In this document: positions 18,983-60,060 of the stretch, piece after piece
Numbering within the stretch: the stretch's first letter is position 1
Layout: every line of letters begins with the position of its first letter
From: Gigantopelta aegis
Taxonomy: Eukaryota; Mollusca; Gastropoda; Neomphalida; Peltospiridae
Length of the DNA: 64,000 nt
Direction: 5' to 3'
NCBI RefSeq assembly: GCF_016097555.1
Contig: NC_054703.1
Location: 15,942,390-16,006,389 of the forward strand
Notes under the pieces: model-generated
Seen by the model: only the letters and a program-made list of their open reading frames with translations
Databases searched by the model: none
What the model was told of the DNA's origin: nothing
Program-made: the position numbers and the translations under genes

Positions 18983-19168
18983 CTTCGTGTCTACTGAGTT
19001 TCTCGCCGAGGTTCATGAGGATGTGTTTCATCTCGGCGCCGGGGATGTATCCTCGTTTGTGTACGTCCTGTGCCGTGAATCCAGCCAGTAGTTCCCGTGC
19101 ACAGTTCTCCACCTTGCTGTGTTCGTGCATGATGTCGAGGAATGACGCGAAGTCGATGCGGCCGTCAC
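18983..19168 (-). CDS. CALML4: CALML4 exon (EF-hands 2 and 3)
   Basis: 186 nt, entered in phase 1 from acceptor TTGTAG|GTGACGG and left at donor CGAAG|GTAAAAG. It encodes DGRIDFASFLDIMHEHSK and then the GYIPGAEMKHILMNLGEKL helix-loop region. It ends one base into a codon, which in CALML4 proteins is the Val after the KLTHKE-type motif. Confidence 0.88.
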
Positions 19169-22100
19169 CTACAACACAGACAAGTCTGTCACAAACTCGT
19201 AACACACACAATAGAAATTAGTTGGAATTTCATCACAGTACATTCTCCATGGTCTTTATTTTAAAGGCATACTGTCACAGATTTAAGGACCTTGGCCCAT
19301 GCCAAGACTTTAAGGTTTATAAGCACGGGGCCTAATTTCTCTAAAAATGGATAATAAATAAAAATTACATTAATTGTTAGAAACCAAAAACTAGCTTATA
19401 AAACTTAAGTCTAGAAACCAAATCTAGCTATCGCATCACCTCAACTGAACCATGATGGAGTGAAATCCATGTCATTCCTCTCACCGCTCAGCCATTTTAG
19501 TTTTTGAATTATGGACCATTGCCATAATTTTATTATTTTTTCAAAATGTCATTAATAAATGGAGTATGGTGGTTATGAAGATGGTTGAATAAAGTACATT
19601 TAGGGGCAAATCAAATGATATTTGTTCAGGTAATACTTTGTTAGACCATTAAAGAGGTCAGTGGTCTGTGACAACATGCTTTTACGGTCTTGCATACCAA
19701 AGGCTATCAGTTTGCAATCATTGTAGGAGTTTCCCCACTTATACGCCCATCTATAAATAGGTCAGTGGTCTGTGACAACATGGCTTTAAAGATGCATGAC
19801 CTGCCATGTGCGAAATCAATTTGTCAGAGATTTATTCAGGATTTTTTTTTGCCAGGTTCCCATGTCTGATGAGGTTAGGAAAATGAGCTTGAGTAAATCA
19901 TCCTTGGGATATTTGTTCAGACCACTGAATGATGCCGTACATCACTGTTGAATCAATTTATTGGAACAGACATAATGAAACACAGTGAAACCTCTCAGAA
20001 CCGGACCCTCTATAAACCGGAATCCCCTCAAAACCAGACCCTCTATAAACCAAAATCCACTCAAAACCAGATATTTTTCATGGTCCCTTAAACGCTTTTT
20101 AAATATCTGTACAGAAGAGAACCTTCATAAACATGATACCACTTAACATCAATGGGTCATTTGTTTACAGCCAACAAGACTTGTAATAGTTGTATAATTG
20201 AGTGTAATGTTTTGATGAGATTTAGTTGAAGTGTGTGGCATCACACTATATCACATTACCGTTGAGATCATTTCTGAAATTTGATTTACTAAATATCGAA
20301 ATAAAATGTTATTTTATAGGATAAATAGAATTAGCTACTCATGGTTTTTTTTATATATGTAAAATATCAACCTTGTCTAGTTAATCGGTATTTGTCTCGG
20401 AGATTTACTAAATATCAAAATAAAATGTTATTTTACAAGTGTTATAGGATAAATAGAATTAGCTACTCATGGGTTTTTTATATATGTAAAATATGAACCT
20501 TGTCTAGTTAATCGGTATTTGTCTCGGAGATTTACTAAATATCAAAATAAAACGTTATTTTAGAAGTGTTATAGGATAAATAGAATTAGCTACTCATGGT
20601 TTTTTTTATATATGTAAAATATCAACCTTGTCTAGTTAATCGGTATTTGTCTTGGCAGAGCCAAATACCGATTAACCAGGACTTCTAGAATTTTATTTAT
20701 AAAACCCCACTTATAGCCATGAGATCAGTGATTTAAAAATTTTACTAGCCACGAATAAAAATTCACTAGATCTACTTTATATAAATACAATTTTATTAGT
20801 AAAGATAGACCTAAAAAATCCATAGATTTTTTTATAATTTTAATTTTTTTTTTGGGGGGGGGGGGGGTGGAGAGATTCATATTTACATAATAGACTTAAA
20901 TGCAACATTTGATAAAAAAAAATTCACTAGCCATCAGACAAGGCTATAGTATTTATTCACTAGCCCATCATTGAATACTACTAGCCATTAGGGAGAGGCC
21001 TTGATATACATGTAACCAGCATTATAATTGGGAATAAATATTGTTTAAACCAATACCACTAGCCATGGGAGTGGGGCTACCATAATCTAGAAGCCCTGGA
21101 TTAACATAAACTTGACTGATATTTTACATATTAAAAAACACTTGTGGCGAATCCTCTATCTATATTTTGAGCAGGAGTTCGACCCGTACCCCCTTTCAAT
21201 GAATAGTGTTAGTTTTAAGGTTAGGCTTAGGGTTAGTCTTAGAGACTTTGATATAGAGAAGTACGGGTCAAACTCTTTCCATATTTCGAGCCCTGTTCTA
21301 CCTGGGATCAGCACCTGGATAGTACGACACCTACTTGAAACATGTTTCTTGAAATACTTGGACACCTCTTCCTTGGTTGGACTGTAGAACAGCGACCTCA
21401 TTATTATGCTGAGGTCAGCTTCATTTGTGACCTGACCTTTCTTGGCATGAAAGTAAAAGCATTCCTTAAATTCTGCAAAGATGAAAGTAAAACAAGTCCA
21501 TAAATTCTGCAAAGATGAAGGTAAACGAAGTCCATAAATTCTGCAAAGATGAAGGTAAACAAAGTCCATAAATTCTGCGAAGATGAAAGTAAACGAAGTC
21601 CATAAATTCTGCAAAGATGAAAGTAAAACAAGTTCATAAATTCTGCAAAGATGAAAGTAAAACAAGTCCATAAATTCTGCAAAGATGAAGGTAAACGAAG
21701 TCCATAAATTCTGTAAAGATGAAGGTAAACGAAGTCCATAAATTCTGCAAAGATGAAAGTAAACGAAGTCCATAAATTCTGCAAAGATGAAAGTAAAACA
21801 AGTTCATAAATTCTGCAAAGATGAAAGTAAAACAAGTCCATAAATTCTGCAAAGATGAAGGTAAACGAAGTCCATAAATTCTGCGAAGATGAAAGTAAAC
21901 GAAGTCCATAAATTCTGCAAAGATGAAAGTAAAACAAGTTCATAAATTCTGCAAAGATGAAAGTAAAACAAGTCCATAAATTCTGCAAAGATGAAGGTAA
22001 ACGAAGTCCATAAATTCTGTAAAGATGAAGGTAAACGAAGTCCATAAATTCTGCAAAGATGAAGGTAAACGAAGTCCATAAATTCTGTAAAGATGAAGGT

Positions 22101-25100
22101 AAACGAAGTCCATAAATTCTGCAAAGATGAAAGTAAACGAAGTCCATAAATTCTGCAAAGATGAAAGTAAAACAAGTTCATAAATTCTGCAAAGATGAAA
22201 GTAAAAGAAGTCCATAAATTCTGCAAAAATGAAAGAAAAAGAAGTCCATAAATTCTGCAAAGAAAACAAATATGATTATAACAGGCCTCTGAGAATGATC
22301 ATTTCATTTGCATGTTGCTCGCGCGAATCTAATTTTACATAACCTATTTTTTTGTCCGCGCAAAATTTGGAACACCATTTACTTGGATATAACAACCACT
22401 TCCAGGGTTTCTGCCAGAAAGAAATTTTTGGGTATGGCGCTATGGAATTGAATGCAACCATAGACAACAGGAGGTATGGTGGGCCTCCCGCAGAAAGAAA
22501 ATGGGTTAATTTTAGCGTTAGGGTTAATAAAATCATACAGTAATGAATGATAAGAGTAAATAATTTTGTCAAAAGGTTAACTTTCAAACAATAAAATACG
22601 TAAACAAAATTGGGTATGGTGCCATACCATATAAGGTCAGCTCCAACAATAGGGTCATTACTATCATATTTTTCGCGACTATCCCATTTCTACTCTCTAC
22701 CTTTTATTACTATATATTAAAAATTATTAATTATGTTAAATATTTTATGCCATTAAACATTGTTATTATGCTTTAGATATATATGATTATGAATATTGTC
22801 TGATGTCCATCTTGTTTAGGAGAGCACTTATATACATGTACGCTCTGCTTTTGATTCTTTTTTTTATCAATAAAATATCTCAAAACAATACCTGTTTTAC
22901 CCTCTAGTAGAAACACTTCAATTGCCCACGGCAATCAGCAATGCTGTGTAGTTTTTAATTCTCTACAAACCTTTTTTGCCTTGGACTATTATTCAGGGGT
23001 TTTTTCAATGGCATGGCTTTTTTGCTGTGGACATTTTCTTAATTACAGAGGTTGTATAACTAGTTAGGCAAAAAGCTAATGGGTTACTTGGATTTATTTC
23101 TATTCAACCGATAAATGGGTCACGCAGATTGTCAATTCTCAGAGGCCTGTAATTAATAACTTGTAGTAAAAAAAGAAAGGAATGTTTTATTTAACGACGC
23201 ACTCAACACATTTTATTTACGGTTATATGGCGTCAGACATATGGTTAAGGATCACACAGATTTTGAGAGGAAACCCGCTGTCGCCACTACATGGGCTACT
23301 CTTCCGATTAGCAACAAGGGATCTTTTATTTGCGCTTCCCACAGGCAGGATAACACAAACCATGGCCTTTGTTGAACCAGTTATGGATCACTGGTCGGTG
23401 CAAGTGGTTTACACCTACCCATTGAGCCTTGCGGAGCACTCACTCAGGGTTTGGAGTCGGTATCTGGATTAAAAATCCCATGCCTCGACTGGGATCCGAA
23501 CCCAGTACCTACCAGCCTGTAGACCGATGGCCTGTCACAACGCCACCGAGGCCAGTAACTTGTAGTAAATTCCACAGTATGAAAAAAGGTATTCCCTGTG
23601 GAAAGGACAATAAGTATTCTCTAATTCCAATCCCCACTTTTTACTATTCTCTTTCCAGGGCTAGCTCTGGGTTAGCCCGAGTACTCTGATGATTTAAGAG
23701 AGCTAGACGGACATTAGCCTGAGTACTCTGACTGTAAGAGAGCTAGACGGACATTAGCCCGAGTACTCTGATTGTAAGATAGCTAGACGGACATTTGGAC
23801 ATAAATACGCTCTTATTACAGTCAGAGACCAAGCTATGTATTTTTTTGGCAATTGCCGACAACCAAAAAGTTGTCAAAGATTTCCGCTCTAATACCACAA
23901 CAATCCTATGTTTGACGTTTTTCGAGTTACTTGATTAAAAAAAATTCAGATATTAATCACTAATACACACACTACAGAAAGAAACCCGACAGCGCCCACA
24001 TTCAGCTGAGCTTCGGCAAACTCCGGACAGCAGAATTCTAAGTTCGCCGACCTATATCGTGACGTTGCGTCACATGATCGCCCACTCAGCCATTCCGTCT
24101 TCCAGAGTTTGCCGAAGCTTAGCTGAATGTGGGTGCTGTCGGGTTTCTTTCTGTAGTGTGTGTATTAGTGATTGCTCTGGGTGAGCAAAATATTTCACCA
24201 AATTTTCTATTAAACTTCAAAAATTGCAGAAATCAAGTTATTTTCTTTAAAATGTCAATTATTACATGGTATTATTTCACCAAATTAAAACAAAATTCAC
24301 CAACTGCTTTTAAAATTCGCAACTGGCGAATTTGGCGAGTGTCAGAGCTAGTCCTGTGTTTCTATCAAATAATTATGAACAGTAATGAATAAGGCCAAGA
24401 GAATGAAAGTTATAGATTTGCGTCAGAACAATTTTAAAAACACATGAGGGTTTTTTTCATTTTTCATTATTTTTATTGAGTCCAAATGAGGTTGACACAT
24501 CAAGAGTTCAGCAATTTTTGTCAATGTTTGAAATATACTGCTTCCTGCTTAAGGATTCAATGCTCTACTGGGCTACACTTCAGAATTTATGACGGAGATG
24601 GCAGTTTTGGCGCAAAGGACCTCGTAGACATTACCACTATTGACGATTTGTGCAAATAATGAAAATTGTCAGCGGTATCTGTCACAGCATGCGGGCAGTG
24701 GACACAAATCTATAACTTTCATTCTCATGGCTCACTTGGTAGAGTGAAATGCTCGAGTTGAAGGATCAAACCCTCGGTAAACATCTTCTCTGACTGGCTT
24801 TCTTCCCATCCTAACCACTGGCACCAGGCATATCATGATGATGATGCGTGGTCCAGATGGATTATGGCATATGATATCAAATATTGGTAAAACTTAGCCC
24901 GAGTACTCTGACTGTAAGAGAGCTAGACGGACATTTGGACATAAACACGCTCTCATTACAGTCAGAGACCAACCTATGTCTTTTTTTGGCAATTCCTGAC
25001 TACCAAACGGTAGGCAACGAGTCCCGCTCTAATACCACAACAATCCTATGTTTGACGTCAAATACCTTTACATCAATCATTTTCGAGTTAAGTGATACCA

Positions 25101-26103
25101 AAAAATCCACATATTAATCACTAATACACATACTACAGAAAGAAACTCGACAGCACCCACATTCAGCTACGCTTCGTGACACTCCGTCGCAACAATTGCA
25201 AAGCTTGGCGATCTATTTCGAGACGTAGACCACGTGATCGCGCACTGGGCGATTCCGCCTTGTGCAGCAGTTACAGGGGCCGTCTCATATCAAGCGAAGT
25301 TACAACATGGAAGAGTTGGCTAATGCCGTTTTGGATGAATTTGGATTTCATTACGTCATTAAACCAAAACAATTACACATTATTGATTCCATTTTGAATT
25401 TGAAGGATACATTTGGGGTGTTATCGACAGGATACGGCAAAAGTATGTGCTACGTACTGCCTCCTCTTATGAGACGACCCCTGTAACTGCTGCACAAGGC
25501 GGAATCGCCCAGTCTCGAAATAGATCGCCGAGCTTTGTAATTGTTGCGACGGAGTGTCACGAAGCGTAGCTGAATGTGGGTGCTGTCGAGTTTCTTTCTG
25601 TAGTATGTGTATTAGTGATTAATATGTGGATTGTTTGGTATCACTTAACTCGAAAATGATTGATGTAAAGGTATTTGATGTCAAACATAGGATTGTTGTG
25701 GTATTAGAGCGGGACTCGTTGCCTACCGTTTGGTAGTCAGGAATTGCCAAAAAAAGACATAGGTTGGTCTCTGACTGTAATGAGAGCGTGTTTATGTCCA
25801 AATGTCCGTCTAGCTCTCTTACAGTCAGAGTACTCGGGCTAGTAAAACTGGACTGCATTGTGACTGTCTGGGAATGTGTATGCCTATATAAAAGAATCTT
25901 TGGCATTGTTGTTAATGCAAAAATGCAGTCAACTGTTTCCTCTAAGACTAGTCTTAACGGTGTCGTTACACAAAACTTCAACTTAATAAAGCGGTAACCT
26001 GTCAATGGCAGAACAAATAGGGGAGGGGCAGACTGGGTCAAGAATGTGACTAAAAATTACAAAATATCTTACCATCTATTTTTTGCTGACTGAAGAAACG
26101 TGC
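18983..26103 (-). CDS. CALML4: Calmodulin-like protein 4 homologue (EF-hand), partial gene of three exons
   Basis: Joining 26103-26073, 21472-21335 and 19168-18983 on the minus strand gives 355 nt with consistent phases and about 118 residues: ARFFSQQKID-EFKECFYF..., a degenerate first EF-hand (HAKKGQVTNEADL), a second (SSDGRIDFASFLDIMHEH) and the start of a third (VHKRGYIPGAEMKHIL...LGEKLSRHE). This follows the vertebrate CALML4 layout closely: KFLSQDQINEYKECF, DGNGELDFSTFLTIMH and LGEKLTHKEV segments are known of that family. CALML4 is a calmodulin/light-chain-like protein, in mammals a myosin light chain of brush-border intermicrovillar complexes; that role here is inferred only. Loop residues needed for calcium are largely lost, as in the family. 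The exon with the initiator ATG (expected immediately before the GCA CGT of 26103) and the last exon (about 30 residues) were not found. An array of acceptor copies lies upstream of the second exon. Confidence 0.88.
19263..19800. mobile_element. TIR element, TTAAAGGCATACTGTCACAG family
   Basis: The left end TTAAAGGCATACTGTCACAG is mirrored by CTGTGACAACATG[G]CTTTAA on the right. The interior (AATGGAGTATGGTGGTTATG) matches the interrupted copy at 27611-29236. A second right-end copy near 19675 suggests internal duplication. Confidence 0.8.
19981..20675. repeat. CAGTGAAACCTCT fragment and three ~125-bp tandem repeats
   Basis: 19981-20110 looks like one end of a pogo/Tigger-like MITE (CAGTGAAACCTCTCAGAACC, repeated CTCTATAAACC). 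From 20283 three copies of a 119-127-bp unit follow (GATTTACTAAATATC...GTTAATCGGTATTTG). The last closes in an inverted repeat with CAAATACCGATTAAC. Confidence 0.75.
20677..21098 (-). mobile_element. MITE of the CAGGGCTTCTAGA family
   Basis: Ends CAGGACTTCTAGA and ATCTAGAAGCCCTG, reverse orientation relative to 58028. It contains a G homopolymer at about 20857. Confidence 0.87.
21335..21472 (-). CDS. CALML4: CALML4 exon (EF-hand 1)
   Basis: 138 nt from acceptor CTTTGCAG|AATTTAAGG to donor TTTCAA|GTAGGTG. It encodes EFKECFYFHAKKGQV, then a helix with ADLSIIMRSLFYSPTKEEV and KYFKKHVS. Phase 1 on both sides matches the neighbours. Its first ~28 nt are the apparent source of the array at 21473-22268. 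Confidence 0.88.
21473..22268 (-). repeat. 34-bp tandem array made of the CALML4 exon acceptor and exon start
   Basis: About 23 head-to-tail units of 34 bp. On the minus strand each reads AATTTATGGACTT, then [C/G]TTTACTTTCAT, then CTTTGCAG, so each unit ends in a usable-looking AG acceptor followed by a near copy of the exon start (AATTTAAGGAATGCTTTTACTTTCAT). The last unit abuts the true exon. The long open frames across it are a by-product of the unit. Confidence 0.93.
22395..22630 (+). mobile_element. MITE fragment, GTTTCTGCCAGA family
   Basis: It starts GGGTTTCTGCCAGAAAGAAA and contains GGTATGGCGCTATGGAATTG, shared with 41107 and (inverted) 41683-41923. Confidence 0.75.
23171..23555 (-). 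mobile_element. SINE, family 2, full length, 14-bp target duplication
   Basis: Reverse-strand copy of the family at 3350. TAACTTGTAGTAAA flanks it at 23157-23170 and 23556-23569. Confidence 0.93.
23656..24356. mobile_element. MITE (CAGGGCTAGCTCTG ends) carrying a nested TIR element
   Basis: CAGGGCTAGCTC on the left mirrors GAGCTAGTCCTG on the right. The body, ATTTCACCAAATTTTC..., resembles 14805-14925. It is split at GCTCTGGGT by the element at 23673-24174. Confidence 0.8.
23673..24174. mobile_element. TAGCCCGAG TIR element, small member, right end shortened
   Basis: Flanked by CTCTGGGT (23665-23672 and 24175-24182), an 8-bp duplication. It starts TAGCCCGAGTACTCTG, with that end repeated three times, and has inverted arms of about 70 bp (23957-24028 and 24101-24171). 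The last ~240 bp of the family's right arm are absent. Confidence 0.85.
24895..25841. mobile_element. 947-bp foldback element with ~370-bp TIRs, helicase fragment inside
   Basis: Left arm 24895-25291 and right arm 25469-25841 are inverted copies, with about 24 bp extra in the left. The ends are TAGCCCGAG and CTCGGGCTA. GTAAAACT is duplicated at 24887-24894 and 25842-25849; 8-bp duplications fit hAT-like or P-like transposition. The 177-bp spacer encodes a helicase-like peptide and is unrelated to the arms. Confidence 0.93.
25307..25486 (+). pseudogene. RecQ-like helicase N-terminal fragment in a transposon
   Basis: The spacer codes from ATG for MEELANAVLDEFGF, then KPKQLHIIDSIL, then TFGVLSTGYGKSMCYVLPPL. 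This is the Q-motif-like lead-in and Walker A (motif I) region of RecQ-family DNA helicases, where the usual form is LPTGYGKS; the proline is Ser here. The frame then runs into the right arm and stops at 25486. Only about 55 residues are present, so no helicase activity is possible. The source could be a host gene or a helicase carried by another transposon; the piece looks like one exon. Confidence 0.75.
26073..26103 (-). CDS. CALML4: CALML4 short N-terminal exon
   Basis: 31 nt between acceptor TATTTTCAG|GCACG and donor AGATG|GTAAGA. It encodes ARFFSQQKID plus the first base of the next codon, continuing exactly into EFKECF of the next exon. In CALML4 proteins this segment follows the initiator Met directly (MAKFLSQDQIN in vertebrates), so the upstream exon should end in ATG. 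Confidence 0.82.
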
Positions 26104-26351
26104 CTGAAAATACAAACATACAACAGTGAAAAACAGAAACAAGCGACGACAAAAATTCGATAAACCTAAGCAAATAAAATCAGATTTTAAAGATATCCCT
26201 ACCATTTTTTTTCTTTCCTAAAACATGAACAACTGGTTTTGTTCCAAATTTAGCATTAGGCGTAACAATAATTATGAATCGGTTGTTGTTAAAAAATCTT
26301 TCAAAAAGTTGAATGAAACTATATACTGGATAAGGAATACCACTGAGTTCA

Positions 26352-26354
<3 letters not shown>

Positions 26355-26434
<80 letters not shown>
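26355..26434. repeat. (AT)n microsatellite
   Basis: About 40 uninterrupted AT dinucleotides next to the 3' end of a SINE. Confidence 0.95.
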
Positions 26435-26435
<1 letters not shown>

Positions 26436-26437
<2 letters not shown>

Positions 26438-26722
26438 GTTTTTTTGTTTAACGACACCACTAGAGCACGTTGATTTATTAATAATCGGCTGTTGGATGTC
26501 AAACATTGGGTCATTTTGACATATAGTCTCAGAGAGGAAACCCGTTACATTTTCCCATCAGTAGACAGGATAGCACATATCACGACCTTTGATATACCAG
26601 TCGTGGCGCACTAGCTGGAACGAAAAATAGCCCAATGGCCACACCGACAGGGATCGATCCCAAACCGACCACGCATCAAGCGAGCGTTTTACCACTGGGC
26701 TACGTCCCGCCGTCCCCACCCC
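26436..26722 (-). mobile_element. SINE, family 1, full length
   Basis: Reverse-strand copy from TTGTTTAACGACACCACTAG to the head GTTTTACCACTGGGCTACGT. Confidence 0.92.
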
Positions 26723-29236: not shown

Positions 29237-29432
29237 ACCAATCTATAGTCCGTCCCATCGTTCTATAAAATTTCGCTTTGGTTTGACGTAAGAATAAAAG
29301 TAAAAGTGTTTTGGAATTACAAAACAATACTATTTTTGTGTACAACTTACAAACAATCGGCTCAGAAATAAATAATTTGTAGTACATTTCATAGTATAAA
29401 AAGGGGCGCTTTCTATGGGATTGACTATAAGT

Positions 29433-29436
<4 letters not shown>

Positions 29437-29475
<39 letters not shown>
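29437..29475. repeat. (TG)n microsatellite
   Basis: A pure GT run followed by G/T-rich sequence to about 29600 that holds no gene. Confidence 0.95.
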
Positions 29476-30224: not shown

Positions 30225-30260
<36 letters not shown>

Positions 30261-30662
30261 CATCATTATTATCATCATTATTATCATCATTATTATTATT
30301 ATTATCATCATTATTATTATTATTATCATCATTATTATCATCATTATTATCATCATTATTATTATTATTATTATTATCATCATTATTATCATCATTATTA
30401 TCATCATTATTATCATCATTATTATTATTATTATTATCATCATTATTATCATCATTATTATCATCATTATCATTATTATTATTATTATTATCATCATTAT
30501 TATCATCATTATTATCATCATTATTATCATCATTATTATTATTATCATCATTATTATTATCATTATTATCATCATTATTATTATTATCATCATTATTATC
30601 ATCATTATTATCATCATTATTATCATCATTATTATCATCATTATTATTATTATTATTATTAA
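30221..30662. repeat. (TTA/TCA)n trinucleotide array
   Basis: About 147 triplets of TTA and TCA. TCA TCA doublets recur in a 12-bp higher-order unit (TTATTATCATCA). All frames on both strands stay open and give homopolymeric peptides of over 140 residues; none is a gene. Confidence 0.97.
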
Positions 30663-35946: not shown

Positions 35947-36104
35947 AATGGAAAAATGTTGATAACATTGCCATGGGAACAGGGGTGACAGAAACTGTCT
36001 TCAAAGCGCCTGAGCTCCCGATAGAGTTGGTCTCCTCCATGGGGAGTACGGTGAGGTCAAAAGAAGAACATTTTCATCATGAGGAGCACAGAATTAACGC
36101 CAAG
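35947..36104 (+). CDS. SLC25A42: SLC25A42 first coding exon (start ATG at 35973)
   Basis: Acceptor TTGTTTTCAG|AATGG and donor GCCAAG|GTGAGG bound a 158-nt exon; coding is 35973-36104, 44 codons, ending in phase 0. Two earlier ATGs (35948, 35956) open frames that stop within 11 codons, so they are upstream mini-ORFs. The ATG at 35973 gives MGTGVTET, matching the conserved MGNGVKEG start of vertebrate SLC25A42, which settles the start. An untranslated exon must lie upstream. Confidence 0.88.
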
Positions 36105-42100: not shown

Positions 42101-45100
42101 AATATGCTACCCCCCACCCCAATCCCCCAGTGTTAGTGCTTTTAAGGGTGTATACTACCAAATCAAATCCCATAGACGACAATAGTAACATATGTGGCTA
42201 AAACTCCTACCTGCAACGTATCAACCGACATAAACGCCACGGATATAAATACTACCACCCCTTACACTTAAAATGAATCAGAAAAAAATGGGGGTCAAGC
42301 TGCTCGTTTCTGAGATAACGGGTAGCGTCTATGACTACCCTAGTTTCGCACAAAATTCGAGTACTTTTTTTTACAGGTACCCCATACATGTTTCAAGCAC
42401 AAGGCTACTTGACACATTGGTACTAGATGAAATAAAATTGCACATTTTTTTTACCCAGATGAAACTATTATTTTTTACAACCAACACACTCACATTTATA
42501 ACCAATCACAGGACTTGTGGTGTTCACTTCTCTATCAAAAGTTTGGTGCACCTCGAACTTTGACCCAGCCGGAAGTTATTTGGTTTAGTACTACCGTAAG
42601 CTCTCTCTCCCTCTTTGGGTGACATATCTGATTATTACTATTATTTAGTAAAATTGTATTAACCTAAAGTAAAGTAGGACTAGTGAATTTTTAATTGTGG
42701 CTAGTAAATTTTTAAAATCACTGATCCCATGGCTAGTGTATTTTATAAAAATTCTAGAAGCCCTGACTCTATCATTATATCTTCAAATAGCATATATAAT
42801 ATATAACAAAATGAGACTGGGCTGAAGACCGAGTACATTTGTGCATATATTTTTGACCTAATGTTTTTCCAAGCTTGTTTTAGCATGGTGCAGTATGTAC
42901 CGTGTCTCAATAGCCTAGTACCATCTTGCCTTAATCAGCCCTGAGATTAAACATGCCTTTTTCAATAATTAATCATCAAATTACATTAAAGTTTATAAAA
43001 CACTCAGTAATGTATTATCAATTAATAACATATACCTGTTAAATATATTTTACCTTTGCATTTATTAACCTTTATACTACTGGATTAATTTTTGACAAAA
43101 ACAACATTGAGTGGGTACAAGTTTATAATTTGTACTCACATATATTCACTTAACTGTTTTAAAAATACATAAAATAAAGTGTATATTTGGACCAGTAGGT
43201 ATTATTTTCTATGGGTTGTTCTGATTTTTCTGATATTTTAGATCAGTTAATTTTTTCAATTCAAGTTTGCATTTACCATAGTTTGACACCCAATAGCCGA
43301 TGTACTTTTCATGCTAGGGTGTCATTAAACATTCATTCATTGAATTTTTTCAAATTTTAGCTAGCAACTCCAGATTTTCATTCTATGAAGCGTTGAGGTT
43401 TCTCGTGCACACATTCCACAAAGAAGGCTTTCTGGCACTGTGGCGTGGTAACTCGGCAACCATGGCTCGTATTGTCCCATATGCGGCTGTGCAGTACATG
43501 GCTCATGAACAGTACAAGATTCTGCTGCAGACGGACAAAACCAGAAAGTGAGTGACAGATGACGGACAGCTTGTAACTCCACCCACCTGCCAGTCACTGA
43601 TTAAAACTCTGCCTTATTTCCTCACTTAGCCATTATTTTATTACTTATATCCACCTGTCAGTCACTGATGACAAACATTACGCTTTGTTTCCTAATTATA
43701 TCCACCTGTCCGTTACTGATAATAAACACTCTATGCGACATGCAAAAAACAAAAGGCAGTCCATTTTTAAGACCTACACCTAGCAGATGAAATAAAAGGT
43801 TTGCAAAAATCATTAAAAAAATCACAGGCAAATTTTCAGGAGAGCGATGTATGAACAATTATCTCATATGCTGTTTAACTTGTTATTCTGTTATATTTTT
43901 ATTCCATGATTCTCTAAAATACATCTCAGAGATCTTAATTTTTCACACACTATCCCAAATCATCCTCTCTCCCTGTGCAATATTTTTCCAGCAGTCCATA
44001 CATATTTTTTTTTTGAATTTTTATATTGATGTTGATCATCACTTTATTTGTTTATTTACCATAGTTTGACACCCAACAGCCGATGTATTTTTCATGCTGA
44101 GGTGTCGTTAAACATTCATTCATTCATTGTTAGCAAATGAATGAATGAATCTTTAATGACACCCCAGTACGAAAAATACATCAGCTATTGGGTGTCGAAT
44201 TATGGTAAATGCAAAAAAAATTGATGATCAACATCAGTATAAAAATTCAAGATTTAAATAAAAACAGTGTAAAGAACTGAAAAATTACCGAGTCCTATCA
44301 ATCTGACAGAAGTAAGGGCTGTTCCAAAATTGATCAAACATGAAAGGAGGGCTCGAAATAGAAAGTAAAATGTGGCTGCTATTAGCAGGTCAAAATAAAT
44401 ATGTCTTGCTAACAATGACCCCTGCGCATGTTGTAACCTCACCATGGTGCAGGGGTGTAACATTCTATTTGAGAATGGCTAATACAGCACAACATTGAAA
44501 TTTTGAGTAAAGTCAGTATCTATCTGTGATATTTGTATTAGTTGTGTATTTTATTGTATTTTTCCTTCTTGTTTCCAGACATCTTCCCCCAGGTAGAAGA
44601 TTTCTGGCTGGATCTCTAGCAGGAGTGTCATCGGTCGCGTGTACATACCCACTAGACATGGTGCGAGCCAGGATGGCGGTCACCGTTAGAGAAAAGTATG
44701 ACTTTATTATAGGGTGGGCCTGAAAATAAATATTTTATTATAGGGTGGGCCTGAAAAGAAATATTTTATTTTAGGATGGGCCTGAAAGAAAAATAGTATT
44801 TTAGGGTGGGCCTGAAAAGAAAGATTTTATTATAGGCCTGAAAAGTAAGTTTTTATAGGTTGGGCCTGAAAGAAATATTTTATTATAGGATGAGACTGAA
44901 AAGAAAGATTGTATTGTAGGGTGGACCTGTGAAAAGTAAGATTTTGTTATAGGATGGATGTGCCTGAAAAGTAAGATTTTATTGTAGGTTGGGCCAGAGA
45001 AGTAAGATTTCCATACAGGGTGGACCTCCATGTTAAGCCTATATCACATTATATGACGCGACACAACTCAACTCAACAGTTAAGTCGCATTCATGTAGTG

Positions 45101-53000: not shown

Positions 53001-56000
53001 CATACATAAAAAATTAACAATGTTAATGGAAACTAAAGACATTAACCCACTATTGGCACATGCTATTTTTAATATAAAAATAAATTGCTATTAAAATCTT
53101 AGTTCAGGTTGCCTATATATAATACCATATTTAAGAGCAGTTGCATATGGCAAGTCAAATACCATGTAAAAAGAAATTATTGAAATCTTTACAGTATGAA
53201 TTATAGGCCAAAACCAACTTTTCTTCAGTGCTAACTTTGATTCAAACTCCATTCAGAGCCAGGTACAGAGATTATTGTCAAGGTCAAGGTCATTGTGAAC
53301 TTACATGATCGAGTGATGGCTAATTAATCAACCAGTATAGTTTAATTAAATAAAATGACAAAATCATAATATTTTTTATTATGAACTGAATATGTGCTAT
53401 AGGGTGTATACTACCAAATCAAATCCCATAGACGACAATAGTAACATCTAAAACTCCTACCTGCAACGTATCAACCGACATAAACGCCACGGATATAAAT
53501 ACTACCACCCCTTACACTCAAAGTGAATCAGAAAAAAATGGGGGTCAAGCTGCTCGTTTCTGAGATAACGGGTAGCGTCTATGACTACCCTAGTTTCGCA
53601 CAAAATTTGAGTACTTTTTTTTACAGGTACCCCATACATGTTTCAAGCACAAGGCTACCTGACACATTGGTACTAGATGAAATAAAATTGCACATTTATT
53701 TTACCCAGATGAAACTATTATTTTTTACAACCAACACACTCACATTTATAACCAACCACAGGACTTGTGGTGTTCACTTCTCTATCAAAAGTTCGGTGCA
53801 CCTCGAACTTTGACCCAGCCGGAAGTTATTTGGTATAGTACTACCTACAGTCTATATGTGGAATCTGTGTCATTGTAATGGTTTTTTCACAACTTGTGTC
53901 TGGAAATGGTAATTAAAGGTAACAGAGTAATTTATCGTAGTTGTTAACAATTTGGTTCTAACTTATGGGTTTTGTTGGGGGTTTTAGGGGGAAGGGGAGG
54001 CATATTTGATTAAATTTTAAATACTGATACATGTGGAGAATTAAACATCACTGGAAATTCGCATGAATATTTAACTATAATTCTAATTTATTAAAAGTAG
54101 CAAACACATTTCACTAAACTTAATTTTATTTTATGAATCTTTTAATTTTGCATTGTTAAAATACCCTTGACAGGCAGCTCCAAGAGACTTCGTCTAAGTT
54201 AATGTTTCATTGCTTTTGGTCTTAAACCATTCCGATGTAAACTTTAGTAGACCGTTTTTTGCAGCCATTTTAACATCTTATACAAAATATGTACATTAGT
54301 CACTAGAGATTCACAGCTCCTACGAAGCTAAATGTACTCACGACGCTCATGACAACTGTCGATCATGTGCCCTAATTTGTATATAGCCTTGATACCGTCC
54401 AATTCGGCAAGGGACGGTACTCTTCGCGCACATGCACAATGGGAATGTGATAGAGGTCTATTAACAAGACCTTTCTTTTTCAGTTGAGTTGAGTCGCGTC
54501 ATATAGTGTGAACGGATTTTAGACACGACCGATTGGTCAGCGATCGTGACCCGCGACCGTCCAGTTGAGTCGCGTCGTATACTGTGATCTAGGCTTTAAT
54601 TATGATATGAACTCCCATAGATCAAGAGACTTTAAATTTTGACAGTTTTATTCTTCTGGATAATTTTTCCTTTTAGCTTCTGTCTACTTACTACAGGTTA
54701 CTGGTTTAAAATTGCTGTATATACATATTGTAGGCTCAAAATTGCTGCATATACATAATGTAGGCTCAAAATTGCTGTATATACATATTGTAGGCTCACA
54801 ATTGCTGTAGGTGAGCATTTTGCCTATGGCAAAAATGTTTTTAAAATTGCTAGAATCAACAACTAACTGTTACATTCTAGCTTAACATGAAAAGCTCTAG
54901 AACGTGATGTATATATAAAAGAAAGGAATGTTTTAAAATACATATACCTCTGGTGAATACCTAACATAATGTGGCATTTCATGTTAATTAAAAAAATAAC
55001 AATAAATTGTTGTTTTTTGGGGGGGTTTTAATGGGGATTTTTTGTTTTGTAGGAGGTTTTCAGGCTAAATAATTAAGAGTAGGAAAGTTACATACAGCTG
55101 TATATTTCTATCTTTGTAAAAGTCGTAATCGCCCTTAGCCGATAAAGGTCCCCATGGGGGGCCGAGCAACTGTTAATTTTCAACCCTGTTTATATGCAAA
55201 CATTTTTTTCCTGTTTACAGTAAACTAAAGATTTTTCCACTCCCTATTAATTTTTTGTGAATATGTTTTTTATCGTACAATTTTCCTGCAACAGTCTTGT
55301 TGATTTTTAATTACTCGTAAGTTGTTAATACTAAATATATTTTTTAAGGTATCACAATCTGAAGGAGATATTCTGGAAGATATACAAAGAGGAAGGAATT
55401 CGGACGCTGTATCGCGGATTCACTCCCACAATCCTCGGATCCATCCCGTATTCTGGCACGAGTTTCTTCACGTACGAGTCACTGAAGAAAATGCATGCAG
55501 GTATACATTTAATGATTTACTGATATTTAAAAATGTGTTGGCTGCGCATTTTAATTGTAACAATTTTATAGCTTAACAAATTTGCTATTGGTTAAGAGCA
55601 TTTTATGCATGTTAGGGTTTGTCGTTAAACACATCAGTTCACCCATCCATCCATCCATCCGTCCATCCAAAACCCACCCATCCATCCATTCATCCATTCA
55701 TCTTTCCATTTATTATCCTATCATCCACCCGTCTGTCCATCCATCCGTTCACCCACCCGTCCAACAATCTATTTTTCCGTATGTCCATCCGTTATCTTAT
55801 CATCAATCCATCCCTCCATACATCCATTCATTCGTCTCTCCATATATCTTCTCATCCATATGTCCATCCATCCATCCAAACCCACCAACTCATCCATCCA
55901 TTCACCCATCCATCTTTCCATCTGTTATCCACCCATCTGTCCGTCCATTCATCCATTCACCTGTCCGTCCAACCATCTTTCCATCTGTCTATCCGTTAAC

Positions 56001-59000
56001 CTATCATCAGTTCATCCGTCCATCCCTATATCTTCCTGTCTGTCCATCCATCCCATCTATTTATTCCAAATCATGGATTTTAGTATGATCTGATTGTGTC
56101 ATACAAATGAATCAGCAAGGGAAAGATCTCTCTCTTCAATGTTGTTAAATACTTTATATTAAACGTTTGGATTATAAATACTATTTACAGTTTGGAAAAT
56201 TTAGTAAGGAAATATATAACCGAATTCGAGTTGAGTCCGATAAAACGGGGGCTCTTTAAAAGCATTGTATTTACTAGTATATGATTTTTAAATTGGCAGT
56301 TTGTCTCACCTGTACAAAGTTTGTTTTGTTTAATGACACCACTAGAGCACATTGATTTATTAATCATCGGCCATTGGCTGTCAAACATGTGGTAATTTTG
56401 ACAGTCATAGAGAGGAAACCCGCTACATTTTTTTTCCCATTAGTAGCAAGGGATCTTTTATATGCACCATTCCACAGACATGATAGCACATACCACAGTC
56501 TTTGCTATACCAGTCGTGGTGCACTGGCTGGAACAAGAAATAGCCCAGTGGGCCCACCAACAGGGATCGATCCCAAACCGACCGCACATCAAGCGAGCGC
56601 TTTACCACTAGCCTACATTGTACATCCCGCCCCCCACCTGTATGAAGTGAAAGGATGAGATTTACATGTATGGGGATGGGGATGTGAGAGCTACATGGAA
56701 ACGTGTAAATGCGCTTAAATTCCATTTCGTCTATTAAAAAAACCCCACCAAAACATGATGTTCAATACCGTTGATCACACAAGGTTCATTTGCATGGTTT
56801 CACGGTTTCATATTTATGATGTGTACCTTATATTATAAGTTATAACCAGTTTAGATTTGTTAGCATTAAATGCAATTTTTGGCAGTTCCAGGGGTTGTAA
56901 ACAACAATTTTCCTTCAGGGGCCCTTGAGCGGCCCCTGGACCCCGGCCGCAGTAAAGTGTTTGTGTTCCAGCCCCTCTCACATCCCTGCATGTAGGTGTT
57001 ATATTTTTGGCAGTGGTGATGACATCACCATTTGCTTTTAGCTCTATAAATCTCACGTTGATGAAACTTGGTTTATAGTTATGTTCATCCCAGTGCTTGT
57101 TGGAAATTTAAATTTAAATTATACTTTTTTTAAAGTTTATTTTTTTAAAACTTATTTTATAAAGCATGCATTGAGATGCAGCTATTGGTGATAATGAATA
57201 AGTAGACAAGACAATTGATTCTCCAGAATTATTTTTTATGATTTAATAATTTTAATGTTTTGGTGTGATATTAACCGTTATATTTCAGAGTATAACAAGG
57301 GCCCGTCTCCTATGGAGAGATTATGTTTTGGTGTGTGATATTAACTGTTATATTTCAGAGTATAACAAGGGCAAAGTCCCATCTCCTATGGAGAGATTAT
57401 GTTTTGGTGTGTGATATTAACTGTAATATTTCAGAGTATAACAAGGGCAAGAACCCGTCTCCTATGGAGAGATTGTGTTTTGGTGTGTGATATTAACTGT
57501 TATATTTCAGAGTATAACAAGGGCAAAGTCCCGTCTCCTATGGAGAGATTATGTTTTGGTGTGTGATATTAACTGTTATATTTCAGAGTATAACAAGGGC
57601 AAAGTCCCGTCTCCTATGGAGAGATTATGTTTTGGTGTGTGATATTAACTGTTATATTTCAGAGTATAACAAGGGCAAGAACCCGTCTCCTATGGAGAGA
57701 TTATGTTTTGGTGTGTGATATTAACTGTTATATTTCAGAGTATAACAAGGGCAAGGACACGTCTCCTATGGAGAGATTTTGTTTTGGTGTGTGATATTAA
57801 CTGTTATATTTCAGAGTATAACAAGGGCAAGGACCCGTCTCCTATGGAAAGATTTTGTTTTGGTGTGTGATATTAACTATTACATGTATATTTCAGAGTA
57901 TAACAAGGGCAAGGACCCGTCTCCTATGGAGAGATTGTGTTTTGGTGCTACTGCTGGTCTCCTCGGTCAGTCGGCTTCGTATCCGCTCGACATCATACGA
58001 CGCAGAATGCAGACTGCCGGTAAGTTACAGGGCTTCTAGATTATGGTAGCCCCACTCCCATGGCTAGTGATATTCAGTGTTGGGCTAGTGAATAACTACT
58101 ATTGCCATGACCGACGGGGCTTCTAGATTATGGTAGCCCCACTCCCATGGCTAGTGATATTCAATGTTGGGCTAGTAATTAACTATTATTGCCATCCCCG
58201 ATGGCTAGTGATATGTTTTTTTGTTCAATATTGCAGTTAAGTCTTATTTTGTAAATATGAATATCCTGTCCCCACCCCACCTCCTAATGTTAGTGTTTTT
58301 AAGCTCGATCTCCCTCTTTAGGTGACATATCTGATTATTACTATTATTTAGTAAAACTGTATTAACTTAAAGTAAAGTAGGGCTAGTGAATTTTTAAACG
58401 TGGCTAGTAAATTTTTGAAAGCACTGATCCCATGGCTAGTGGATTTTATAAAAATTCTAGAAGCCCTGTAAATTACTTAAATAATATTGTTCATTGTTAC
58501 AAACACACAGTTTCAAATTCCGCACAACATCATACGACACAGAATAATATTGTTCATTGTTACAAACACACAGTTTCAAATTCCGCACAACATCATACGA
58601 CACAGAATAATATTGTTCATTGTTACAAACACACAGTTTCAAATTCCGCACAACATCATACGACACAGAATAATATTGTTCATTGTTACAAACACACAGT
58701 TTCAAATTCCGCACAACATCATACGACACAGAATAATATTGTTCATTGTTACAAACACACAGTTTCAAATTCCACACAACATCATACGACACAGAATAAT
58801 ATTGTTCATTGTTACAAACACAGTTTCAAATTCCGCACAACATCATACGACACAGAATAATATTGTTCATTGTTACAAACACACAGTTTCAAATTCCGCA
58901 CAACATCATACGACACAGAATAATATTGTTAATTAGTGGAAACCGTTTCATAAAATAATTAAAGATAAATTATTAGAAACAGTTTCATTTCTGCTAGATG

Positions 59001-59963
59001 TTATTTGAGTGAGATTTCTTATTCCGTTATACTAGTATATATTGCTATAAATATATTTACAAAGTAGATGTCAGATGAAAGTTAGATGATGGTTTTCTTA
59101 GAAGGGTACAAACTCGGGTTTTTTCATAATTCTTTTTGTCAACTTACGGTTCGATGAAAAATACAGTATCTATGACTGCACTTCATCAACATCACTGACG
59201 CCATATAACCGTAAATAAAATGTGTTGAATGTGTCGTTAAATAAAGCATTTCCCTCTTCCTTCTTTCAGGGTTCAAACCTAACGGCGGTACCGACGGCAA
59301 TTGCCGTCGTTGAGATATAAATTGCCATAGGTAGAGAGCATCACCGATGGCACTTTTGTGCCGTCGGTAAAGCTCCTCAACAATGGTGAAATGTATACAC
59401 CTGGTGTACATTATCTGCCAATATTTAACATTTGCGCATTTAAAAGATGTCTACATATAACAAGATAGCCTTTCAGTCAGGTTTATTTGCTGCAAATGTC
59501 ACTTTTAAAACAATTGCCATAGGCAGGCTCAAAATTGCCATTGGAGGACAGTTTCACCCATTGCAATTCTTTTAAAAATTGCTGAGGGAGACAAATTCTT
59601 AAGTTCGAGCCCTGTTCTTTTCATCAACATCAAAGTAAACAAGATAAAACTTTGAGCCACATTTACCCTTGTTTCTGATGTCATGCTATGTTGTAGGTTT
59701 TCTCATGTTATGGCTCACACATATTATATGTTGTTTTTGTTTTGTCTACAGGAGTGACCGGGCATGCCAACGACTATACGAGTATTATTGGAACGGCCAC
59801 GCGTGTGATACGAGATGAGGGCTTCATCCGCGGCATGTACAAGGGGCTCAGTATGAACTGGATCAAAGGACCGATCGCCGTCGGCCTCAGCTTCACCACG
59901 TTTGATATCACCGTGCGGTGGCTGAGGTCGTTCGAGTTCTTCCATATAGACGACGAGTCGTAG
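35973..59963 (+). CDS. SLC25A42: Mitochondrial coenzyme A / ADP-type carrier, seven coding exons, complete
   Basis: Join of 35973-36104, 40308-40416, 43361-43547, 44579-44695, 55349-55500, 57897-58019 and 59752-59963: 1032 nt, 343 residues plus stop, every junction GT-AG and in phase. The protein has three ~100-residue mitochondrial carrier repeats with signatures [14 protein letters not shown] and PLDIIRRR, each preceded by a Gly/Ala-rich odd-numbered helix ([31 protein letters not shown]). [21 protein letters not shown] near the C-terminus is the SLC25A42 hallmark. The family imports CoA into the mitochondrial matrix in exchange for adenine nucleotides across the inner membrane. Human SLC25A42 has 318 residues; the extra length here is in the N-terminus and tail. 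The substrate is inferred from family. Intron 4 (10.7 kb) is packed with nested transposons, and four exons border tandem arrays copied from their own edges. Confidence 0.95.
36138..38217 (+). repeat. 40-bp minisatellite made of a SINE head, about 52 copies
   Basis: The unit is GGCAGGACGTAGCTCGGTGG then TAGAGCACCTATCTGAGGTG. TAGCTCGGTGGTAGAGC is a tRNA A-box-like motif, the same head found on the family SINEs. Variants have GGGTGG for GGTGG or lose two bases (GGTGATAAGC). The last unit runs directly into an intact SINE body at 38218, showing the source. It lies 33 bp into intron 1 of SLC25A42. Confidence 0.95.
38210..38475 (+). mobile_element. SINE, family 1, source of the adjoining array
   Basis: It begins GATGTAGCCCAGTGGTAAAG and has the full body, with the tail shortened to TAGTAAAACAAACG. 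Confidence 0.88.
39362..39545. mobile_element. GC-rich MITE fragment, CACACACGCCCGG end
   Basis: The core GGGAAGCATGACTCGACCCC and TTCACCACAGTCAAGATTCC match the copies at 10440 and 33852. Confidence 0.65.
39605..40307 (+). repeat. Two-level tandem array copied from the SLC25A42 exon 2 boundary
   Basis: Four copies of an acceptor plus exon start occur (…CTCGCAG|GTTGCCAACCATAACAAAATCAT): a diverged one at 39615, then 39708, 40133 and the true exon at 40308; one at 39814 has CAG|AATGCC. Within them a 36-bp unit (AATGCCAACCACAACAAAAT, then CATAATGTTTGTATAG) is repeated seven times from 39814 and twice from 40169. Each unit ends in AG, and in the exon frame each ends in a TAG stop. Confidence 0.92.
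40308..40416 (+). CDS. SLC25A42: SLC25A42 exon 2
   Basis: 109 nt, acceptor ATCTCGCAG|GTTGCC, donor TTCCAGA|GTGAGT. It encodes [20 protein letters not shown] and [16 protein letters not shown]: transmembrane helix 1 and the first carrier signature. Confidence 0.93.
40475..40762 (+). mobile_element. SINE, family 1, full length
   Basis: Head GGGGCGGAACGTAGCCCAGT, tail GTTGTTAAACAAAAACAAC. It lies in intron 2. Confidence 0.92.
41107..41330 (+). mobile_element. MITE fragment, GTTTCTGCCAGA family
   Basis: AGTGTTTCTGCCAGAAAG end and GGTATGGCGCTATGGAATTG body as at 22395. The right part is altered. Confidence 0.75.
41548..41957. mobile_element. Pogo/Tigger-like MITE carrying a nested MITE
   Basis: CAGTGAAACGCTTCAAAACG and a right end GTTTAGAAATGTTTTACTG are inverted, with TA before the left end. 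Repeated AAACCAGA blocks are typical of such ends. It contains the element 41683-41923. Confidence 0.75.
41683..41923 (-). mobile_element. GTTTCTGCC MITE, complete, nested
   Basis: AGTGTTTCTGCC and GCAGAAACACT are inverted ends. The body is the reverse complement of 22395 and 41107. Confidence 0.82.
41959..42765 (+). mobile_element. CAGGGCTTCTAGA MITE split by a GTATACTACC MITE
   Basis: Starts CAGTGCTTCTAGATTATGG and ends TTCTAGAAGCCCTG. The site GTTTTTAAGC...TCTCCCTCTTT, continuous at 2500 and 58300, is broken here by 42147-42595. Confidence 0.88.
42147..42595 (+). mobile_element. GTATACTACC MITE, complete (copy 1)
   Basis: Ends GGTGTATACTACCAAAT and ATTTGGTTTAGTACTACC are imperfect inverted repeats. 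A TAA(G) repeat flanks it. It contains a 96-codon frame, also open in the copies at 51336 and 53403, with no recognised product. Confidence 0.87.
42780..43265. other. Intron 2 AT-rich stretch, nothing seen
   Basis: No repeat family or coding signal recognised between the MITE and the SINE-tail scrap at 43268-43345 (ACACCCAATAGCCGATGTAC). Confidence 0.5.
43361..43547 (+). CDS. SLC25A42: SLC25A42 exon 3
   Basis: 187 nt, acceptor AAATTTTAG|CTAGC, donor CAGAAA|GTGAGT. It encodes the matrix helix and helix 2 of repeat 1, including [20 protein letters not shown], the [D/E]GxxxxxxG-type loop of carriers, and [13 protein letters not shown]. Confidence 0.94.
44012..44250. repeat. ~110-bp inverted repeat in intron 3
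   Basis: Arms 44012-44120 and 44135-44250 share GATGTTGATCATCA, TTTACCATA, ACACCCAA[C/T]AGC and CATTCATTCATT in inverse orientation. It is two SINE-tail copies head to head. Confidence 0.85.
44579..44695 (+). CDS. SLC25A42: SLC25A42 exon 4
   Basis: 117 nt, acceptor TGTTTCCAG|ACATC, donor GAGAAAA|GTATGA. It encodes [20 protein letters not shown] and [19 protein letters not shown]: helix 3 and the second carrier signature. The donor is weaker than the GTAAGA forms in the array just downstream. Confidence 0.94.
44696..45034 (+). repeat. ~31-bp tandem array copied from the SLC25A42 exon 4 donor
   Basis: About 11 units, each CCTGAAAA followed by GTAAGATTTTATTATAGG or GAAATATTTTATTATAGG, then GTGGG. 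The true exon end reads GAGAAAA|GTATGACTTTATTATAGG, so the first unit includes the real donor. Four units carry a consensus-like A|GTAAG, better than the authentic site. Confidence 0.9.
45477..45578 (+). pseudogene. Possible THAP-like zinc-finger start, decayed
   Basis: A 33-codon frame, [18 protein letters not shown] then [12 protein letters not shown], resembles the C-x(n)-C start of THAP domains with FYTFSKD in place of FHRFPKD. It stops after ITF. THAP domains occur in P-type transposases, which would fit the surrounding TIR element. Too short for certainty. Confidence 0.3.
45986..46056. repeat. (AT)n microsatellite
   Basis: About 35 TA dinucleotides. Confidence 0.95.
46190..46287 (+). 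mobile_element. SINE 3' fragment
   Basis: GAATGACCATATGTTTGACG, CCAATAGCCGATGA and GTCGTTAAATAAAACAAAC. Confidence 0.85.
46288..46915. other. Intron 4 segment, nothing coding seen
   Basis: AT-rich with no repeat family that I recognise. Confidence 0.5.
46964..47095. repeat. (CT)n microsatellite
   Basis: About 60 CT dinucleotides with a few interruptions, preceded by a poly-C run at 46926. Confidence 0.95.
48338..48742 (-). mobile_element. SINE in copy B, 13-bp target duplication, empty site in copy A
   Basis: AGTTCTGCTCAAA flanks it (48325-48337, 48743-48755). Copy A has the uninterrupted equivalent GGTTCCGCTCAAATGAA near 6200. The head is family 2, the tail family 1 (GTTTTATTTAACGACACC). 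Confidence 0.95.
49161..49951. mobile_element. Pogo/Tigger-like 0.8-kb element, TA duplication
   Basis: CAGTGGACTCTGTCTAAACT and GTTTAGACAGAGTCCACTG are inverted ends flanked by TA. The AAACCGG/ATCCGGAT repeats near both ends are typical. It holds half of a TTAA MITE (49560-49738, as in 32760-32938). No transposase remains. Confidence 0.88.
50957..51335. repeat. Foldback with ~100-bp arms
   Basis: GATCGCATAGGGCAAAA, GCCGTCTGCCATTTTG and TATGGAATACTCT on the left recur in inverse order and strand between 51216 and 51320. Confidence 0.85.
51336..51784 (+). mobile_element. GTATACTACC MITE, complete (copy 2)
   Basis: Near identical to 42147-42595 and 53403-53845, with the same ends and open 96-codon frame. 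Confidence 0.88.
53403..53845 (+). mobile_element. GTATACTACC MITE, complete (copy 3)
   Basis: Same ends. It lacks the ATAT(G/A)(T/C)GG bases near its left end that copies 1 and 2 carry. A TA on both sides fits a TA duplication. Confidence 0.88.
54715..54800 (+). repeat. ~30-bp tandem repeat upstream of exon 5
   Basis: About three units of CTCAAAATTGCTGTATATAC then ATATTGTAGG. Each ends in TAGG, a possible acceptor, but the unit does not resemble exon 5. Confidence 0.8.
54801..55348. other. End of intron 4, no gene
   Basis: AT-rich sequence with a G run at about 55018. A scrap related to the 59267 MITE (TGAGCATTTTGCCTATGGC) lies at 54812. Confidence 0.5.
55349..55500 (+). CDS. SLC25A42: SLC25A42 exon 5
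   Basis: 152 nt, acceptor TTTTTTAAG|GTATCAC, donor CATGCAG|GTATAC. It encodes [40 protein letters not shown] and [10 protein letters not shown]: the matrix helix, helix 4 and the EEG...YRG loop of repeat 2. Confidence 0.94.
55636..56065. repeat. (CCAT)n-like degenerate tetranucleotide array
   Basis: Dozens of CCAT, CCGT and TCAT tetramers over 430 bp in intron 5. Frames read as artificial Ser/His/Pro/Ile-rich peptides of over 120 residues. Confidence 0.94.
56315..56634 (-). mobile_element. SINE, family 1, full length, 8-bp target duplication
   Basis: CACCTGTA flanks it at 56307-56314 and 56635-56642. It runs from GTTTTGTTTAATGACACC to the head CGCTTTACCACTAGCCTAC. Confidence 0.92.
56643..57250. 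other. Intron 5 stretch without features
   Basis: No coding or repeat family recognised. Confidence 0.5.
57251..57896 (+). repeat. Nine decoy copies of the SLC25A42 exon 6 start, 76-bp array
   Basis: Units begin at 57289, 57359, 57435, 57511, 57587, 57663, 57739 and 57815, with a leading partial from 57251, and lead into the true exon at 57897. Most are 76 bp: TTATATTTCAG acceptor, the first 48 nt of exon 6 (AGTATAACAAGGGCAAGGAC...CTATGGAGAG...TGTTTTG), then GTGTGTGATATTAACTG. The exon part varies at one codon (GAC, AAC or GTC). Each copy meets an in-frame TGA right after the exon-like part. Confidence 0.95.
57897..58019 (+). CDS. SLC25A42: SLC25A42 exon 6
   Basis: 123 nt, acceptor ATATTTCAG|AGTATAAC, donor TGCCG|GTAAGT. 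It encodes [20 protein letters not shown] then [21 protein letters not shown]: helix 5 and the third carrier signature. It is the only copy in the array that continues past TTTTGGTG into GCTACTGCTGG, which identifies it as the real exon. Confidence 0.94.
58028..58468 (+). mobile_element. CAGGGCTTCTAGA MITE 8 bp after the exon 6 donor, TA duplication
   Basis: Perfect ends CAGGGCTTCTAGA and TCTAGAAGCCCTG, flanked by TA on both sides. Its first ~85 bp are duplicated in tandem at 58118. The insertion leaves the donor GTAAGTTA intact. Confidence 0.93.
58480..58930 (+). repeat. 63-bp tandem array, about seven units, with exon 6-like segment
   Basis: The unit is AATAATATTGTTCATTGTTA, then CAAACACACAGTTTCAAATT, then CCGCACAACATCATACGACACAG. 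The part CCGCACAACATCATACGACACAGAAT matches CCGCTCGACATCATACGACGCAGAAT in exon 6 at 24 of 26 positions. 63 bp is 21 codons, so frames stay open on both strands. Confidence 0.9.
59197..59266 (+). mobile_element. SINE tail fragment
   Basis: GACGCCATATAACCGTAAAT and GTCGTTAAATAAAGCATTTC, cut by the MITE at 59267. Confidence 0.8.
59267..59614. mobile_element. 348-bp MITE, TTCTTT target duplication
   Basis: CAGGGTTCAAACCTAA and TTAAGTTCGAGCCCTG are inverted ends. TTCTTT is duplicated on both sides (59261-59266 and 59615-59620). Internal AATTGCC blocks recur. Confidence 0.9.
59752..59963 (+). CDS. SLC25A42: SLC25A42 exon 7 with stop codon
   Basis: 212 nt from acceptor TTGTCTACAG|GAGTG. It encodes [60 protein letters not shown] and [10 protein letters not shown], stop TAG at 59961-59963. 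[13 protein letters not shown] is the most conserved SLC25A42 segment. Confidence 0.95.
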
Positions 59964-60060
59964 CATTGGGAAATTAAATAGGAGTCATAGCACTGTGAAA
60001 TGAAAGACGAGTCGTAGCATTGGGAAATCAAATACGAGTCGTAGCATTGTGAAATCAGAT
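59952..60060 (+). repeat. 27-bp tandem repeat of the SLC25A42 stop-codon region
   Basis: GAGTCGTAGCATTGGGAAAT[T/C]-type units begin at 59955, 59982, 60009 and 60036, exactly 27 bp apart. The first contains the real stop codon; later units repeat it in frame. Confidence 0.93.

Follow-up and report, generated by a model that had tools for sequence, protein, structure and literature searches.

Tandem arrays built from the border of an authentic exon have been described in amphioxus, where they are called mirages (parts of PMC3087553). Passages of two amphioxus reports place them in Adh3, globin, PGBD5 and troponin C genes, with unit lengths ranging from 10-72 bp in Adh3 to 150-160 bp in the globins (PMC3087553, PMC3902484). 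As excerpted for the globins, mirages occur at both 5' and 3' borders, their units are 81-100% identical, two haplotypes carry 6 and 3 units, respectively, and RT-PCR suggests that the genes are spliced regularly (PMC3087553). Two kinds of border duplication are also described in humans. The CBS variant c.844_845ins68 is a 68-bp duplication of the intron 7/exon 8 junction from which, according to part of one report, normal mRNA is made via the more distal site (PMC2630376), and internal tandem repeats with units averaging 30 bp are reported, in sections of another, at exon-intron boundaries within segmental duplications (PMC2812944). For molluscan mirages, the literature yielded no such title among the matches listed. 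An earlier, sequence-only reading of the locus studied here had described six arrays seeded by coding-exon edges and knew of no named system of this kind, a statement that the amphioxus precedent overturns.

Host genes and array survey

The window, a 64,000-nt stretch of the Gigantopelta aegis genome, contains two genes that bear such arrays, a seven-exon SLC25A42-like carrier on the forward strand and a CALML4-like neighbour on the reverse strand. In our gene model, carrier exons 2 to 7 lie at 40308-40416, 43361-43547, 44579-44695, 55349-55500, 57897-58019 and 59752-59963, and exon 1 (35973-36104) is placed by reading frame and ATG alone. The coding sequence is a single open frame of 1032 nt with GT...AG at 6/6 introns, and its product matches Pfam Mito_carr (4.7e-72). 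Using a human SLC25A42 sequence as the tblastn query, we found 54-69% identity across exons 2-7 and no match to exon 1. The CALML4-like gene was modelled with exon 2 at 21472-21335, whose authentic acceptor border at 21472 is intact, exon 3 at 19168-18983 and a last exon at about 13549-13452, and a hand-joined piece of it matches EF-hand_7 (3.2e-13).

Tandem Repeats Finder returned 57 rows for the window, and eight loci passed a filter of ≥20 for period, ≥3.5 for copy number and ≥90 for length. These comprise all six of the arrays reported earlier (6/6), a 52-unit array resembling a SINE head and a TCCA-type array. Five of the six sit at splice borders of the carrier and CALML4-like genes and the sixth at a stop codon; the repeat unit itself crosses the junction in four, namely those at the starts of CALML4 exon 2, carrier exon 2 and carrier exon 6 and at the end of carrier exon 4. 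Each border is itself intact, and every additional copy falls on its non-coding side. The longest array in the window is the 52-unit one, which has 40-bp units, covers ~2.1 kb (36138-38217, forward strand) and starts 34 bp past the exon 1 donor. By eye it looks like the head of a tRNA-derived SINE. To relate arrays to exons we aligned 60 exon bases locally to each array and compared the best score with the maximum over 300 shuffles, and on this measure the SINE-like array has no exon match (score 14, shuffle maximum 23).

Several other features of the window were recorded in passing. An open frame of 343 aa from stop to stop, which contains basic and proline-rich stretches (15770-16801, forward strand), is possibly derived from a retroelement, a short open frame at 25238-25486 (forward strand) looks by eye like part of a RecQ-type helicase, and a TTA-triplet array of 435 bp and 145 units by Tandem Repeats Finder (30227-30661) leaves several frames open. 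A 25-base repeat motif occurs in 10 copies at no more than three mismatches.

Structure of the arrays at acceptors, donors and the stop codon

The three acceptor-side arrays agree with the sequence-only reading, in that each has a unit spanning the acceptor. Next to CALML4 exon 2, the unit of the 34-bp array (21473-22263, reverse strand) consists of the last 8 nt of the intron, acceptor included, and the first 26 nt of the exon, all 26 of which are matched in the exon-to-array comparison (score 37, shuffle maximum 29). This places 23 decoy acceptors upstream of exon 2, or 24 borders if the authentic one is counted, at an unbroken 34-bp spacing and with AG kept in 23/23. By approximate weight tables, the decoys score 10.2-11.5 and the authentic acceptor 10.9. 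The array is homogenised, with 7 of 34 columns variable among 22 units, and the exon copy differs from the best-matching unit at 3/26 exon positions; in this, the sole array tested for it, inner units are homogenised and edge units divergent, which is a mirage trait. The carrier exon 2 array (39595-40307, forward strand) is nested, with 36-bp units inside larger units of ~95-175 bp, and holds 12 decoy acceptors, with the first ~23 exon nt repeated after each (score 46, shuffle maximum 28; 23 nt identical). Upstream of carrier exon 6, a 76-bp unit (57255-57896, forward strand) joins ~25 nt of intron end, with the acceptor, to ~51 nt of exon start (score 97, shuffle maximum 24; 51 nt with one mismatch), giving 8 decoys. 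By the same approximate tables, decoy scores are 3.2-9.8 for exon 2 (authentic site, 7.2) and 6.0-8.0 for exon 6 (authentic site, 6.0). In total AG is kept in 43/43 decoy acceptors (23 CALML4, 12 exon 2, 8 exon 6), where the searches for CALML4 and exon 6 required AG and the regular spacing shows that no unit was skipped.

The remaining claims about array position held in part. The 31-bp array at the end of carrier exon 4 (44696-45034, forward strand) does start at the donor, but its periodicity begins just 5 nt inside the exon and the exon-only 60-nt match scores 14 against a shuffle maximum of 21. Likewise, the 27-bp array at the end of exon 7 (59952-60057, forward strand; 3.9 units) does span the carrier stop codon and extend into the 3' UTR, but it takes in 12 coding nt within exon 7, where there is no splice border, and its exon bases score 24, equal to the shuffle maximum of 24. 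Because neither score is better than shuffles, overlap with the exon is shown in these two cases only by contiguous periodicity, over 5 and 12 exon nt, respectively. Among the exon 4 decoy copies, GT is kept in 4/10, as GTAAG, and lost in 6/10; the decoy GTAAG resembles the textbook consensus more closely than does the authentic GTATG, in a comparison made by motif and not by score.

The array assigned earlier to the end of carrier exon 6 is a tandem array with exon 6 sequence, but the exon edge and donor are absent from its unit. It consists of 7.3 units of 63 bp (58480-58934, forward strand) and starts 460 bp downstream of exon 6, and its unit matches an internal piece of the exon (57982-58008) at 24/27 nt, stopping 11 nt short of the exon end (score 39, shuffle maximum 20). 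A 441-bp terminal-inverted-repeat element (58028-58468, forward strand) with ends CAGGGCTTCTAGA...TCTAGAAGCCCTG and flanks TAAGTTA / TAAATTA occupies the intervening sequence from +9 of intron 6. Since this element lies between exon 6 and the array, the start of the array was probably near +13 of intron 6 prior to the insertion. Four other full-length CAGGGCTTCTAGA/TCTAGAAGCCCTG pairings are found in the window, two with exact 7-bp flanking duplications and two without exact ones; the other inverted-repeat elements of the family are located at 2314-2655, 9512-9812, 20677-21098 and 41959-42765. The copy at 58028 also contains an internal 87-bp tandem duplication.

In a further border duplicate, absent from the sequence-only reading, the exon 2 donor edge recurs in degenerate form (40925-41003, forward strand); this copy comprises 28 exon and 47 intron nt at 78% identity over a 79-column alignment, with GT changed to TT. 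The intron sequence past the exon 2 border is repeated again beyond a SINE-like insert, which was read by eye, and the copy is therefore part of an older and larger duplication that the insert has split. Across the locus, the match of border copies to their exons is uneven, at 78% for the exon 2 donor, 24/27 for the exon 6 piece, 50/51 for the exon 6 start and 23/23 for the exon 2 start.

Origin of the arrays and competing explanations

We consider it likely that these arrays are mirage-type minisatellites, generated by tandem duplication at a border, expansion by unequal exchange or slippage, and selection for one intact border. A local tandem duplication would happen to cross an exon border, capturing intron end and exon start or exon end and intron start, after which in-register unequal exchange or slippage would enlarge the duplicate and homogenise its copies on the intron side, which can tolerate them. 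Meanwhile, selection would keep the single intact border that adjoins the rest of the exon. Splicing would ignore the decoys, probably via exon definition, in which an exon is delimited by whichever splice site lies closest to its opposite end. That the process was duplication and exchange, and that the arrays differ in age, is what we infer from three observations: the homogenised CALML4 array stands beside a divergent authentic copy, divergence among border copies is uneven, and one array was later parted from its exon by a transposon whose flanking duplication has diverged. Against such an origin, the exon 6 end units, which lack a donor, need an extra deletion step, and the stop-codon array is off splice borders. 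Microhomology was rejected as an origin, as the arrays share no pattern: at exon 6 the array has the same 10 bases at both ends and the CALML4 array consists of whole units. Were decoys used, an in-frame open extension would result for 3/23 in CALML4, 0/8 at exon 6, 0/12 at exon 2 and 0/4 at exon 4. An intact carrier protein thus requires splicing at the site beside the intact exon.

Simple random duplication accounts poorly for the number of border arrays. In a unit-level seeding test, each array was represented by one randomly placed seed unit, with 40000 draws per array set (floor 2.5e-5) and 19 edges, two stop codons among them; in 'gene span' runs, edge positions were random and their number true. 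Border-containing seeds were expected 0.20-0.55 times and observed 4 times on a strict splice definition, 5 times with the stop codon and 6 times by the count of the sequence-only reading, corresponding across array sets to p values of 7.5e-5 to 1.7e-3, 2.5e-5 to 1.7e-4 and 2.5e-5 to 5e-5, respectively. Random placement of full-length arrays gave p values of 0.006-0.027 for containing an edge and 0.0005-0.010 for lying within 50 bp of one. A crude control that compared edges with tiles differs little, because tiles within arrays count (7/19 vs 216/1027 at 60 bits, 9/19 vs 243/1027 at 50, 9/19 vs 272/1027 at 40 and 11/19 vs 320/1027 at 30).

We also compared splice junctions with 3666 control points, which were taken every 10 nt and hence are non-independent, leaving out the six border arrays, points within 80 nt of edges and the copy of the exon 2 donor; ten other arrays contributed their first unit only. 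A local direct duplicate of at least 36 bits is present within 1 kb at 6/17 junctions vs 255/3666 points (p 7e-4) and, at the same threshold within 3 kb, at 6/17 vs 541/3666 (p 0.03). One of these junctions, the exon 6 donor, passes a threshold of at least 45 bits only via the inner duplicate of the transposon, its exon-piece match being 36.5 bits. A match at the carrier exon 3 acceptor proved to be a dispersed repeat that stops 5 nt before the border and was dropped from the 6/17; counting it would give 7/17, for which p is 8e-5 at 1 kb and 0.008 at 3 kb. The window was picked post hoc for these arrays, so all of these p values overstate the case. Thus, the earlier claim that arrays fall on exon borders more often than by chance stands as an in-window excess, with weaker backing from the local-duplicate control (p 7e-4 to 0.03), and something may raise the rate or survival of duplications at borders.

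One candidate is that exon borders are hotspots of tandem duplication through transcription or splicing, by way of R-loops, pausing or breakage. The local excess of border-seeded arrays, the 1-kb comparison and the recurrence within one gene at differing divergence fit this idea, whereas two of the arrays (the one at the stop codon and the one with donor-less exon 6 units) are at no splice border, the exon 4 array touches just 5 exon nt, and the longest array, 34 bp past a donor, has no exon match. In addition, the control weakens at 3 kb, the tile control is nearly flat, and every case comes from two neighbouring genes in a window chosen post hoc. We regard hotspots of this kind as unlikely. 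As for the splice-linked duplication process first proposed for the locus, most arrays do carry border sequence, in excess of random seeding, and the stop-codon, donor-less exon 6 and exon 4 arrays do not follow from it; the process is not supported here and stands as an unlikely candidate. It is doubtful, if somewhat less so, that in this lineage borders are real duplication hotspots at which single genes gather many mirages over time. If true, such hotspots would continually supply new splice sites and introns, and the resulting arrays would offer a natural experiment in how the spliceosome chooses among as many as 24 acceptors with similar scores.

It is very unlikely that selection retains the arrays as regulatory decoys, whether as alternative acceptors or as extra coding repeats. 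Retention of AG in every decoy acceptor and the open in-frame extensions of three CALML4 decoys could be taken in its favour, but homogenisation by itself keeps AG, and we do not read the 43/43 as selection because the units are homogenised. Moreover, the exon 6, exon 2 and exon 4 decoys yield no open in-frame exon, six exon 4 copies and the duplicate of the exon 2 donor have lost GT, and a donor is missing from the exon 6 end unit. Finally, creation of the repeats by mis-assembly or transcript-guided gap filling is highly improbable: one amphioxus globin mirage was apparently misassembled in a draft genome (passages of PMC3087553), but here the units differ in patterned ways and include both intron and exon sequence, and inserted elements have split an array in one case and a duplicate in another.

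Comparison with human border duplications and amphioxus mirages

Under the preferred reading, mirage-type duplication with selection for one intact border, the locus bears on intron gain via tandem duplication. If mirages exist outside lancelets, border duplication would extend more widely among animals, and a gene with so dense a set allows both the rate of border duplication and the choice of the authentic site among near-identical decoys to be tested. Human CBS makes such a choice for one duplicated junction, as part of its description indicates (PMC2630376), and excerpted amphioxus RT-PCR data suggest likewise (PMC3087553). The name of a second CBS variant, the VNTR c.1444_1467+7, implies a 31-bp donor-border unit of 24 exon and 7 intron nt, which is similar to the exon 4 array; the CBS cases differ in being polymorphisms in one human gene, and the 31-bp array here has only 5 exon nt. 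The minisatellites of human segmental duplications are alike in that some lie at borders and are able to form new introns, and differ in belonging to young human paralogs with transcript support (sections of PMC2812944).

The closest likeness is to mirages, which the amphioxus passages describe as tandem units that straddle an acceptor or donor border and adjoin the authentic one, with AG or GT in many but not all units and concerted evolution within an array (PMC3087553, PMC3902484). A unit that spans the intron-exon border, the defining feature, is found at the acceptors of CALML4 exon 2 and of carrier exons 2 and 6 and, marginally, with its 5 exon nt, at the exon 4 donor, and is lacking in the exon 6 end array, whose unit has no border, and in the stop-codon array. 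The authentic border is also intact beside the arrays, as the open carrier frame with its six GT...AG introns and the CALML4 acceptor attest. Judged by structure, the four arrays at CALML4 exon 2, carrier exons 2 and 4 and the start of carrier exon 6 qualify as mirages, the exon 4 array marginally so. The locus differs from its amphioxus counterparts in number and density, with 23 CALML4 decoys as compared with the 6 and 3 units excerpted for the two globin haplotypes (PMC3087553), and with one gene that bears a degenerate duplicate and five arrays, of which one is at the stop codon, next to a neighbour with a single array.
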